DNA from: Paracoccus lichenicola
GTDB taxonomy: Bacteria > Pseudomonadota > Alphaproteobacteria > Rhodobacterales > Rhodobacteraceae
DNA: 64,000 nucleotides
NCBI RefSeq assembly: GCF_009708075.1
Contig: NZ_WMBT01000002.1
Span: 186,001-250,000, forward strand
Direction of reading: 5' to 3'
Shown here: one piece after another, positions 22,316-25,269 of the stretch
Layout: every line of letters begins with the position of its first letter
How positions within the stretch are numbered: position 1 is the stretch's first letter
Made by a program: the position numbers and the translations under genes
Notes under the pieces: model-generated
The model's input: the letters and a program-made list of their open reading frames with translations, nothing else
Told to the model about the DNA's origin: nothing
Databases searched by the model: none

Positions 22316-23413
22316 ATGGGCTTTCGCATGGGAATTGTCGGCTTGCCGAACGTGGGCAAATCGACGCTGTTCAACGCGCTGACGAAAACCGCCGCCGCGC
22401 AGGCCGCGAACTTTCCGTTCTGCACCATCGAACCCAACGTGGGCGACGTGGCCGTTCCCGATCCGCGCCTGGACACGCTGGCCGCCATCGCGGGCAGCAA
22501 GCAGATCATCCCCACGCGCATCACCTTCGTGGACATCGCGGGCCTGGTGAAGGGCGCCAGCAAGGGCGAAGGCCTGGGCAACCAGTTCCTGGCCAACATC
22601 CGCGAGGTGGACGCCATCGCCCATGTCCTGCGCTGCTTCGAGGATGGCGATGTCACCCATGTCGAGGGCCGCGTCGATCCCATCGCGGACGCCGAGACCA
22701 TCGAGACCGAGCTGATGATCGCCGACCTGGAATCGGTCGAACGCCGCCTGGCCAACATTGCCCGCAAGCTGAAGGGCGGCGACAAGGACGCCGTGGCCCA
22801 GGAAAAGCTGCTGAAGGCCGCGCAGGCCGCGCTGGAATCCGGCAAGCCCGCCCGCACCGTCCCCGTCGCCGACGAGGACCGGAAGGCCTGGGCCATGCTG
22901 CAATTGCTGACCGCCAAGCCCGTCCTGTTCGTCTGCAACGTCGAGGAGGACCGCGCCGCCACCGGCAACGCCCAGTCCGACCGCGTGGCCGAAATGGCCC
23001 GCGCCCAAGGGGCGGGGCATGTGGTGATTTCCGCCCGGATCGAGGAGGAGATCAGCCAGCTTCCAGCAGACGAAGCCGCGATGTTCCTGGAGGAGATGGG
23101 CCTGCACGAGGCGGGCCTGGATCGCCTGATCCGCGAGGGCTACAAGCTCTTGGGCCTGGACACCTATTTCACGGTCGGCCCCAAGGAAGCCCGCGCCTGG
23201 ACCATCCACCGCGGCACGCTGGCCCCCCAGGCGGCGGGCGTGATCCACGGCGATTTCGAGCGCGGCTTCATCCGGGCCGAGACCATCGCCTATGACGACT
23301 ACGTCGCCTGCAAGGGCGAGGCGGGCGCGCGCGAGGCGGGCAAGTTCCGCGTCGAGGGCAAGACCTATCCCGTCAAGGACGGCGACGTGCTGCATTTCCT
23401 GTTCAACGGCTGA
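22316..23413 (+). CDS. ychF: Redox-regulated ATPase YchF (Obg-like)
   Basis: The 365-residue protein is the universally conserved YchF/OLA1. The G1 loop is GLPNVGKST (residues 9-17), FPFCTIEPNVG and FVDIAGLVKGASKGEGLGNQFL are diagnostic, and the C-terminal TGS domain includes GPKEARAWTIHRGTLAPQAA. It binds ATP rather than GTP, associates with ribosomes and is linked to oxidative stress. Length is normal. It is convergent with the sigma-factor-like gene, with a gap of only six bases. Confidence 0.96.
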   Translation: MGFRMGIVGLPNVGKSTLFNALTKTAAAQAANFPFCTIEPNVGDVAVPDPRLDTLAAIAGSKQIIPTRITFVDIAGLVKGASKGEGLGNQFLANIREVDAIAHVLRCFEDGDVTHVEGRVDPIADAETIETELMIADLESVERRLANIARKLKGGDKDAVAQEKLLKAAQAALESGKPARTVPVADEDRKAWAMLQLLTAKPVLFVCNVEEDRAATGNAQSDRVAEMARAQGAGHVVISARIEEEISQLPADEAAMFLEEMGLHEAGLDRLIREGYKLLGLDTYFTVGPKEARAWTIHRGTLAPQAAGVIHGDFERGFIRAETIAYDDYVACKGEAGAREAGKFRVEGKTYPVKDGDVLHFLFNG

Positions 23414-23419
23414 GAGGCC

Positions 23420-24169
23420 TCACCGCCCCCAGACATACCACGCCACCGCCGCGACCAGCAGGATCGCGACGATCCCGGCCGGTCCGCGCCACCAGGGCTT
23501 GCGTTCCAGCGGATCGACCGACAGGGGCGCAAGCCCGTGGCCCAGGTGTTCCCGGATCCGCTGGCGGGCGCGGGCCGGGGCCATGACCGGGGTCAGGTCG
23601 CCCGCGAAACGCGCCAGCCGTTCCTGCCAGTCGGCAAGCCGGGCCTTGTCCAGGGGTTCGCCCCCTCGCAGCCCGAGCGCCTGTTCGGCCGCGGCAAGGC
23701 TGTCGCCCTCGTCCGCGGCATGTCCGGCGAGCCGTTCCAGCCCCTCGTGCAGGGCGTGGCGGGCTTCATCGGCGGAAATGCCCTGGCGTCCGGCCAGGCG
23801 GGAATAGTCCAGCCCTTCCAGATAGGCGATGCGCACCAGTTCGACGGGATCGGCGTTGTTCCGGCCCCTCGCCTCGGCCATGGCGGGCATCGCGCCATGC
23901 GACCGGTCCATGGCCCTGTCGCGGGTTTGCGTCACCATCCAGGCCATGGACGACAAGCCGCTGCCGGGAACGCGCGCCGCCTCTTTCCAGACGGAGATAT
24001 AGACCTGTTCCAGCGTTTCCTCGGCCTCTCGCCGGTCCTTCAGGATCGACAGGCACAGCGCGTTCAGCCGCGCCGAGGTGGTTTCATACAACGTGTCGAA
24101 AGCATGACGGTCACCCTTCGCGATGCGCGCGATCAGGCTGTCCAGGGTCGTCTGGCGGGCATCCGGCAA
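23420..24169 (-). CDS. ECF sigma factor fused to an anti-sigma-K-like segment and a membrane helix
   Basis: The 249-residue protein has an ECF sigma region 2 (about 18-88; FDTLYETTSARLNALCLSIL, EETLEQVYISVWKEA) and a region 4 helix-turn-helix (about 107-148; LVRIAYLEGLDYSRLAGRQG). The rest is unlike a sigma factor: residues 156-212 (AAEQALGLRGG, LADWQERLARFAGDLTPVMAP, ARQRIREHLG) resemble the cytoplasmic part of RskA/anti-sigma-K proteins, and 229-247 form a membrane helix with almost nothing beyond it. The predicted product is thus a membrane-tethered sigma factor. The start is a TTG at 24169 with GAGGAA upstream; no ATG is available. The reading is mine and needs a profile search. Confidence 0.72.
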   Translation of the reverse strand: MPDARQTTLDSLIARIAKGDRHAFDTLYETTSARLNALCLSILKDRREAEETLEQVYISVWKEAARVPGSGLSSMAWMVTQTRDRAMDRSHGAMPAMAEARGRNNADPVELVRIAYLEGLDYSRLAGRQGISADEARHALHEGLERLAGHAADEGDSLAAAEQALGLRGGEPLDKARLADWQERLARFAGDLTPVMAPARARQRIREHLGHGLAPLSVDPLERKPWWRGPAGIVAILLVAAVAWYVWGR

Positions 24170-24294
24170 GGGGGTTCCTCTCGTGATTGCGCAGTCAACT
24201 TAGCAGCCGTCCCGCCCCCGTCAACGCAGCCCCGGCTTGCACGTGGCGGACTTATGCGCAATCAAGGCAGGCGATGTGATGAAAGGGCCTTGCG

Positions 24295-25269
24295 ATGCTG
24301 GACATGAACGCCAAACCGACTGAGGAGATCGACCTGCGCGAGGCGTTCGGTCTGGACAGCGACATGAAGGTCAAGGGCTTTGCCGAACGCACCGACCGCG
24401 TGCCGGAGGTGGACAGCACCTACAAGTTCGATCCCGACACCACCATGGCGATTCTGGCGGGATTCGCCTATAACCGCCGGGTGATGATCCAGGGCTATCA
24501 CGGCACGGGCAAATCGACGCATATCGAACAGGTGGCGGCCCGCCTGAACTGGCCCTGCGTGCGGGTGAACCTGGACAGCCATGTCAGCCGCATCGACCTG
24601 ATCGGCAAGGACGCGATCAAGCTGGTGGACGGCAAGCAGGTCACGGTGTTCCACGAAGGCATCCTGCCCTGGGCCTTGCGCAACCCGACCGCCATCGTCT
24701 TTGACGAATACGACGCGGGCCGCGCCGACGTGATGTTCGTGATCCAGCGGGTGCTGGAAACCGACGGCAAGCTGACGCTTCTGGACCAGAACGAGGTGAT
24801 CACGCCCAACCCCTATTTCCGGCTGTTCGCGACGGCCAACACCGTCGGCCTGGGTGACACGACGGGGCTTTACCACGGCACCCAGCAGATCAACCAGGGC
24901 CAGATGGACCGCTGGTCGCTGGTCAGCACCCTGAACTATCTGTCCCACGATGCCGAGGCCGCGATCGTGCTGGCCAAGAACCCCACCTACAACACCGAAA
25001 AGGGCCGCAAGATCATCGGCCAGATGGTGACGCTGGCCGACCTGACGCGCACGGCCTTCATGCAGGGCGACCTGTCCACCGTCATGTCGCCGCGCACGGT
25101 GATCACCTGGGCGCAGAACGCGCGCATCTTCGGCAACAACATCGGCTATGCCTTCCGGCTGACCTTCCTGAACAAGTGCGACGAGCTGGAACGCCAGACC
25201 GTGGCCGAATTCTATCAGCGCCTGTTCGACGAGGAACTGCCGGAAAGCGCCGCGGCGCGGGCGAAGTGA
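24295..25269 (+). CDS. cobS: Cobaltochelatase subunit CobS
   Basis: The 324-residue AAA+ ATPase is one of three subunits (CobN, CobS, CobT) of the aerobic cobaltochelatase that inserts cobalt into hydrogenobyrinic acid diamide in B12 synthesis. Walker A is GYHGTGKST (67-75), Walker B is [11 protein letters not shown], and [20 protein letters not shown] is diagnostic. Length matches characterised CobS. cobT normally follows directly; here a low-GC unrelated gene begins with a one-base overlap at the cobS stop (TGATG). The window also carries B12-dependent methylmalonyl-CoA mutase, a consumer of the product. Confidence 0.95.

Follow-up and report, generated by a model that had tools for sequence, protein, structure and literature searches.

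The window analysed here (the whole stretch of 64,000 nucleotides) carries an open reading frame that encodes, in a single chain and in this order, region 2 of an ECF sigma factor, a shortened region 4, an RskA-like cytoplasmic part and one terminal membrane helix (Table 1). In its genome the gene is located at G000:C22, and by protein comparison its nearest named relative is found in Paracoccus shandongensis (77%).

Table 1. Features of the fused sigma/anti-sigma gene and its surroundings (positions within the window)
Feature	Position	Strand	Remarks
Fused sigma/anti-sigma gene	23420-24169	-	249 codons plus stop, TTG start; whole in 11 genomes
Sigma region 2	23894-24148	-	residues 8-92; NCBIfam and PDB matches, dN/dS; Asn70, Asn84 and Gln54 of intact relatives lost
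Shortened linker	23846-23893	-	residues 93-108; nearly unconstrained (dN/dS 0.73-0.89); shorter than in intact relatives by a net 31 residues
Region 4 remnant	23720-23845	-	residues 109-150; former -35 recognition helix, basic charge gone; no Pfam region 4 match
Anti-sigma helices 1-3, eroded	23600-23704	-	residues 156-190; aligned with split anti-sigma genes; dN/dS 0.44
Anti-sigma helix 4 and juxtamembrane segment	23486-23599	-	residues 191-228; most conserved part, dN/dS 0.15
Membrane helix and C-terminal end	23423-23485	-	residues 229-249; periplasmic domain absent
-35-like hexamer TTGACG	24219-24224	-	
-10-like hexamer TAAGTT	24197-24202	-	16-base spacer to the -35-like hexamer
Ribosome-binding-like AGAGGAA	24175-24181	-	5 bases upstream of the TTG start; read from sequence
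cobS	24295-25269	+	divergent neighbour of the fusion; name read from the translation
ychF	22316-23413	+	convergent neighbour in the 11 fused genomes and G259 (within the stretches fetched); name read from the translation

The N-terminal part of the product resembles region 2 of SigK-type ECF sigma factors. It was matched by the NCBIfam models PRK12514 (E 2.3e-28) and PRK09646, the SigK model (E 3.9e-22), in both cases below the family cut-off, and a search of solved structures returned M. tuberculosis SigK (4nqw), which matches residues 6-110 of the fusion (E 2.6e-14). In Pfam, region 2 (Sigma70_r2) reached 16.2 bits, below the cut-off of 24; no match was above cut-off, and neither region 4 (Sigma70_r4_2) nor RskA_C (PF10099) was found. 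In two intact orthologues, region 2 scored 55.0 and 59.6 bits and region 4 scored 45.8 and 39.1 bits. Sigma70_r2, Sigma70_r4_2 and RskA_C are all above the Pfam cut-offs in two intact relatives, RskA_C being present in G259 and G210. A net 31 residues are gone between regions 2 and 4 of the fusion, so that position 139 of the intact sigma factor aligns with position 108, and the missing stretch includes the beginning of Pfam region 4 (126-138 in G210). The first-pass annotation had placed ECF regions 2 and 4 at residues 18-148; region 2 was borne out by the SigK-type matches, but a complete region 4 was not.

The same annotation described an RskA-like cytoplasmic segment followed by one membrane helix with no sensor domain after it, and this agrees with what was found. 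Residues 156-228 can be aligned with the cytoplasmic part of RskA-like anti-sigma factors that separate genes encode in related genomes, although helices 1-3 are eroded, and NCBIfam NF052375 matched the anti-sigma part with 25 bits, below its cut-off of 100. The chain ends at a single hydrophobic helix near residues 229-247. An AlphaFold2 model of the fusion, built from two sequences, had a mean pLDDT of 44.8, too poor to test docking between the sigma and anti-sigma parts; it predicts, with low confidence, helices at 157-164, 175-191, 199-210 and 230-248. A PDB search with an intact anti-sigma protein gave chance-like matches only (E >= 0.2). The anti-sigma part of the fusion contains no cysteine and therefore has no usual zinc anti-sigma motif.

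The genome of the fusion also carries a complete SigK/RskA pair (L002 1459-2744; G000:C33, about 121.9 kb) with Sigma70_r2, Sigma70_r4_2 and RskA_C above cut-off. This is a separate locus, and its product is a possible binding partner of the fusion.

The distribution of the gene was examined in 125 genomes of the genus, of which 74 had a match at E <= 1e-6. The loci of 65 further genomes were fetched, giving 66 rows including the window; the 8 further matching genomes had weaker hits only (best E 1e-13 to 1e-17), which were taken to belong to the separate SigK type and left out of the rows. Classification by length and membrane helix yielded 36 intact pairs, in which the anti-sigma factor has a periplasmic domain, 11 fusions like that of the window, seven other fusions (G163, G177, G188, G217, G240, G244 and G247) and 10 pairs in which the anti-sigma gene stops shortly beyond the membrane helix; in two rows (G197 and G219) an anti-sigma gene was not found. 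The three kinds of copy bearing a change (11 fusions, seven other fusions and 10 pairs with a short anti-sigma gene) are referred to below as the 28 altered copies. The comparison of orthologues proposed by the first-pass annotation thus found the full-length fusion in 11 of the 125 genomes, the window's genome included, and the 10 other proteins are 58-77% identical to that of the window. A search of the family (149 genomes) found matches at E <= 1e-10 in 60 genomes; outside the window's genome they cover the first 113 residues only.

The sigma gene adjoins cobS in 64 of the 66 rows, the exceptions being G201, which reaches a contig end, and G219, whose match sits elsewhere. Fused and split forms share this place, which led us to reject a new paralogue existing alongside an intact orthologue. 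Among the fetched loci, ychF lies within reach beyond the fusions in G259 only. In 40 stretches upstream of cobS, from 39 of the 59 other genomes and from G219, the pair was untraceable at E <= 0.01, two of these stretches being less than 2 kb long upstream.

That two genes are the normal arrangement, as had been claimed, is confirmed by the 46 split pairs, which overlap at ATGA in 45 cases. With such an overlap a small frame change can join the genes, and an assembly or sequencing frameshift in the window could in principle have done the same on paper. However, the fusion occupies the identical place in 11 assemblies, most of which also show conserved sequence over the junction. Its presence in 10 further genomes led us to reject this artefact, which had been named as a check on the initial reading; we regard it as practically impossible.

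The TTG start had been taken as a sign of low expression, a suggestion that did not hold. By script-picked start codons, 10 of the 11 fusions begin with TTG, and 43 of 45 split pairs with GTG or TTG. A ribosome-binding-like motif precedes the start, and the promoter-like site TTGACG-N16-TAAG[TG]T is kept in all 11 fusions. A looser form of this pattern occurs in 58 of 64 intergenic stretches compared to 0.3% of letter shuffles. An autoregulatory promoter of the ECF type was considered and rejected, as the conserved site resembles a housekeeping promoter (TTGACG-N16/17-TANNNT). On the cobS side, a block CTTGATYGCGCAT...GCAAG (24236-24266 in the window) recurs in most of the intergenic stretches listed and is perhaps part of the cobS promoter.

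The ancestry of the fused gene was examined in a FastTree phylogeny of rpoB and cobS comprising 61 genomes (27 of the 28 with altered copies, 23 of the 36 with intact pairs, G197 and 10 without the pair). In this tree the 11 fusions cluster as a single clade whose sister is the intact-pair genome G259, with support of 1.0 for the group of 12 and 0.74 for the group of 11. The corresponding values in the tree of rpoB alone were 1.0 and 0.54. The tree of cobS alone pairs G259 with G214 within the fused group (bootstrap 99), and in the gene tree the pair of G259 itself falls among the intact pairs. Since G259 has two separate genes, and the split pairs overlap at ATGA in 45 of 46 cases, the intact pair is the ancestral state.

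A single origin of all 28 altered copies was rejected by the AU test (p = 0.003), performed on a quick tree with the trait columns left out and for a group known beforehand from an earlier tree. The gene tree without trait columns requires six changes, gains and losses being undistinguished, of which strongly supported branches force only two. This tree groups the 11 fusions with G157/G218 and G163/G170/G177 (SH-aLRT 89), in conflict with the rpoB and cobS tree. On the latter, if domains are not regained, there are 13 altered lineages, 10 losses of Asn84 and four fusion lineages, several nodes being weak. These reconstructions support a repeated origin of altered pairs, with two changes as the number that strong branches force.

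Some of the other altered copies differ from the fusion of the window in informative respects. In G158 (L116) and G199 (L121) the sensor and Asn70 are gone, while Asn84 and most of the sigma part, with most of region 4, are kept; these two lie near the intact G209 on several trees, and look like early stages of the series. The fusions of G188 (L117 2975-3970) and G217 (L130 3260-4087) are without region 4 but with a periplasmic RskA_C, and in G217 most of anti-sigma helices 1-3 is gone too. Having lost region 4 and kept RskA_C, they would tie region 2 more directly to the sensor. The fusions of G247, G244 and G240 (L106, L083 and L079), 263-264 residues long, have diverged strongly, and the promoter-like pattern is absent upstream of them.

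The altered copies have lost residues used for reading promoters. Asn70, which was placed in the specificity loop by its spacing from a conserved Trp, is present in 36 of 36 intact pairs and in none of the 28 altered copies. Asn84 is likewise found in all 36 intact pairs, and in 4 of the 28 altered copies (G158, G177, G196 and G199); both residues are lost in 11 of 11 fusions. The residue of M. tuberculosis SigH aligned to this second site, Asn88, has a role in unwinding and its alanine mutant is defective (PMC6411747); the same source gives other polar residues at the equivalent site of other working ECF factors, and Arg in SigK. Trp170, Arg172 and Arg173 of the -35 helix are invariant in the 36 intact pairs; of the 28 altered copies, 6, 10 and 4, respectively, retain them. 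The net charge of this stretch (164-180) is +3 to +4 in the 36 intact pairs, compared to -4 to 0 in the 11 fusions (mean -2.0; -2 in the window).

Another exchange concerns position 54, where all 36 intact pairs have Gln and all 11 fusions have Glu. In all 15 rows with Glu54, position 72 of the anti-sigma part, in helix 4 (204 in the fusion), is Arg; Arg72 also occurs in 4 of the 36 intact rows and in six altered rows without Glu54. A salt bridge between Glu54 and Arg72 may form part of a putative clasp between region 2 and helix 4.

The selection acting on the gene was estimated as pooled Nei-Gojobori dN/dS, with 55 fused pairs compared to 475 intact ones by codon bootstrap; as the pairs share branches, the intervals given here are indicative only. 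Region 2 has a dN/dS of 0.32 in the fused group and 0.16 in the intact group (ratio 2.0, 95% interval 1.38-2.97), and the retained part of region 4 has 0.44 and 0.14, respectively (ratio 3.2, 1.7-6.5). For anti-sigma helices 1-3 the fused value of Table 1 compares with 0.31 in intact pairs (ratio 1.4, 0.9-2.3). Helix 4 with the juxtamembrane segment shows the opposite tendency, its low fused value standing against 0.335 in intact pairs (ratio 0.46, 95% interval 0.21-0.77). These codon comparisons show that constraint in the 11 fusions has shifted away from promoter reading and now lies on helix 4 with the juxtamembrane segment.

Other altered lineages allowed six internal comparisons, in which helix 4 with the juxtamembrane segment gave 0.09, 0.12, 0.13, 0.22, 0.38 and 0.45, the value for G240/G244/G247 being 0.22. 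Region 2 gave 0.14, 0.15, 0.19, 0.22, 0.31 and 0.63 in the same six comparisons; its relaxation is thus not universal, and it is not seen in G240/G244/G247 (0.15) or G163/G177 (0.14). The helix 4 stretch also has the lowest synonymous divergence (0.49, compared to 0.63-0.82), so part of the constraint signal may act on DNA or RNA. The stretch at 23486-23599 (minus strand) of the window may hold such an overlapping signal, e.g. at the end of the convergent ychF.

These estimates bear on the possibility that the gene is dying, i.e. that the pair is dispensable in Paracoccus and is lost stepwise and then deleted, the fusion being one stage of this process. Such a course is consistent with the altered copies not being of one origin, with the 40 stretches upstream of cobS in which no trace of the pair is left, and with the relaxed constraint on regions 2 and 4 in the 11 fusions. 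Against it, the open frame and the promoter-like site are intact in all 11 fusions despite a mean pairwise dS of about 0.67, the whole-gene dN/dS is 0.39, and helix 4 with the juxtamembrane segment is held more tightly than in intact pairs. Slow decay towards loss is therefore less likely for the 11 fusions, and we consider the dying gene an unlikely explanation. As selection still preserves the fusion, it has probably taken on a different job.

Comparison of the sequences thus demonstrates the fusion itself, its shared ancestry with the intact pair, the loss of the sensor and of promoter-reading residues, and purifying selection. The explanation that we favour, with some reserve, is that the gene encodes a self-locked, membrane-anchored pseudo-sigma factor kept for a job other than promoter recognition. 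The gene would go back to a two-gene switch next to cobS, in which an ECF sigma factor of SigK type was paired with a membrane anti-sigma factor of RskA type. The common ancestor of the 11-genome Paracoccus clade would have lost the periplasmic sensor, and its two ATGA-overlapping frames would have been joined. Without the sensor, the sigma part could presumably no longer be released on a signal, and anti-sigma helix 4 would be expected to stay docked on region 2 within one chain, covering the contact with RNA polymerase. The promoter-reading residues would then have degenerated, while selection maintained region 2, helix 4, the juxtamembrane segment and the anchor. The end product would be a locked pseudo-sigma factor that probably no longer directs transcription.

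We infer that the chain locks itself, that it has no sigma activity and that a job other than promoter reading remains. The most likely job, though this is a guess by analogy, would be to hold another protein, an anti-sigma factor or a part of the polymerase, at the membrane. Several observations speak against the proposal. Region 4 is still constrained in the fusions, and more so in the closest eight (dN/dS 0.23), which a pure loss of DNA binding would not predict. The unrelaxed region 2 of G240/G244/G247 and G163/G177, the low synonymous divergence of the helix 4 stretch, the other polar residues that working ECF factors can have at the Asn84 site and the place of G259 in the tree of cobS alone count against it as well.

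The idea of a membrane-tethered, self-inhibited sigma factor had been put forward in the first-pass annotation. Its structural part, the fusion and the missing sensor, stands, but a sigma factor awaiting proteolysis is not the best reading of the gene, because all 11 fusions have lost Asn70, Asn84 and the basic character of the -35 helix, and the beginning of region 4 with them. Release by proteases, as known for IutY, keeps that idea alive as an alternative: the product could be a working one-component sigma factor that inhibits itself at the membrane until the site-2 protease RseP frees it (constitutively, its periplasmic tail being only a few residues long, or in a controlled manner) and that then acts at promoters of another type. 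This class of architecture is known, and IutY variants with short periplasmic parts are cleaved by RseP in an RseP-dependent but Prc-independent manner (PMC5411451), so the sigma domain of the fusion might be freed likewise. The genome has one Peptidase_M50 match, and some constraint acts on region 2 and on what remains of region 4. Moreover, a partly truncated RskA can activate SigK in the experiments cited below, and loss of the sensor need not mean a sigma factor that is off. The absence of Asn70, Asn84 and the basic -35 helix in every one of the 11 fusions, the absence of Asn70 in all 28 altered copies, the missing start of region 4 and the lack of a Pfam region 4 match all weigh against a working factor, and we judge this alternative to be quite improbable.

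For the locked pseudo-sigma factor, a broader proposal can be advanced only tentatively: that it is a new kind of membrane protein derived from a permanently broken switch, that region 2 is permanently clasped by its own helix 4 and reads no promoters, that the protein has been retained for a new role, perhaps as a membrane holdfast for another anti-sigma factor or for part of RNA polymerase, and that, as the transformation has been repeated within one genus, loss of the sensor leads predictably to a pseudo-sigma factor. One genus displays a series comprising the intact pair, a sensorless pair, a fused pair, a fused pair without promoter-reading parts, and no pair at all, which looks like the breakdown or change of task of a common bacterial signal switch. 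Our claim is that, once the sensor is lost, the sigma part may become locked and selection may turn to the docking surface and the anchor. It follows for annotation that such genes may be named sigma factors though they probably direct no transcription.

The proposed lock can be compared with solved complexes, in which anti-sigma helix 4 lies on regions 2.1 and 2.2, the surface that meets the polymerase clamp helices, and anti-sigma helix 1 is in contact with region 4 (PMC7406223). For inhibition of SigK in M. tuberculosis the cytoplasmic part of RskA is sufficient, and the activating phenotype obtained with RskA 1-193 was not seen with 1-121 or 1-86 (PMC7509140). According to the same source, RskA lacking the last part only (1-193 or, in Yersinia, 1-179) switches SigK fully on, whereas Yersinia RskA 1-85 inhibits. 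On these data, a pair that loses the whole sensor should stay off, while partial loss may do the opposite.

Among the closest known systems is SigK/RskA of M. tuberculosis, SigK (4nqw) being nearest to region 2 of the fusion among solved structures. Two intact Paracoccus relatives have RskA_C, and the order, sigma factor then anti-sigma factor, is the same. The fusion differs in being one protein, in having no RskA_C sensor and a short region 4, and in the loss of promoter-reading residues.

A sigma factor and a membrane anti-sigma factor in one chain are already known from IutY and from ECF48, ECF52 and ECF53. IutY of Pseudomonas putida likewise joins a cytosolic sigma domain to a membrane anti-sigma part (PMC5411451). 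In contrast to the fusion, IutY has an anti-sigma domain in the periplasm and works with an iron-carrier receptor, and Prc and RseP release its functional sigma domain, whereas the Paracoccus chain stops at the membrane helix and its promoter-reading parts are incomplete. ECF48, ECF52 and ECF53 of Actinobacteria (e.g. SCO4117) share a fused C-terminal membrane anti-sigma-like extension but have a zinc-finger domain and extensions of up to 400 residues (PMC8999054); the anti-sigma part of the fusion is without cysteine. The fusion thus has the sigma-like and membrane anti-sigma parts in one chain that characterise one-component ECF factors, and lacks their periplasmic sensing or interaction domain. 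It also lacks two features of working ECF factors, a region 2 above the Pfam cut-off and a complete region 4 with a basic recognition helix.

A search of the open-access literature by titles and abstract starts returned no paper on such a Paracoccus fusion. As far as literature searches show, the new elements are the sensorless fusion of SigK/RskA type, its loss of promoter reading, the recurrence in one genus and the shift in constraint.

A further parallel is PhyR, which is a soluble protein. In this alphaproteobacterial regulator a sigma-like domain antagonises an anti-sigma factor (PMC4814048 and PMC5830050). PhyR differs in having a response regulator domain, and a receiver domain was not among the Pfam matches of the fusion. 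It nevertheless serves as a model of how a dead sigma domain can be useful.
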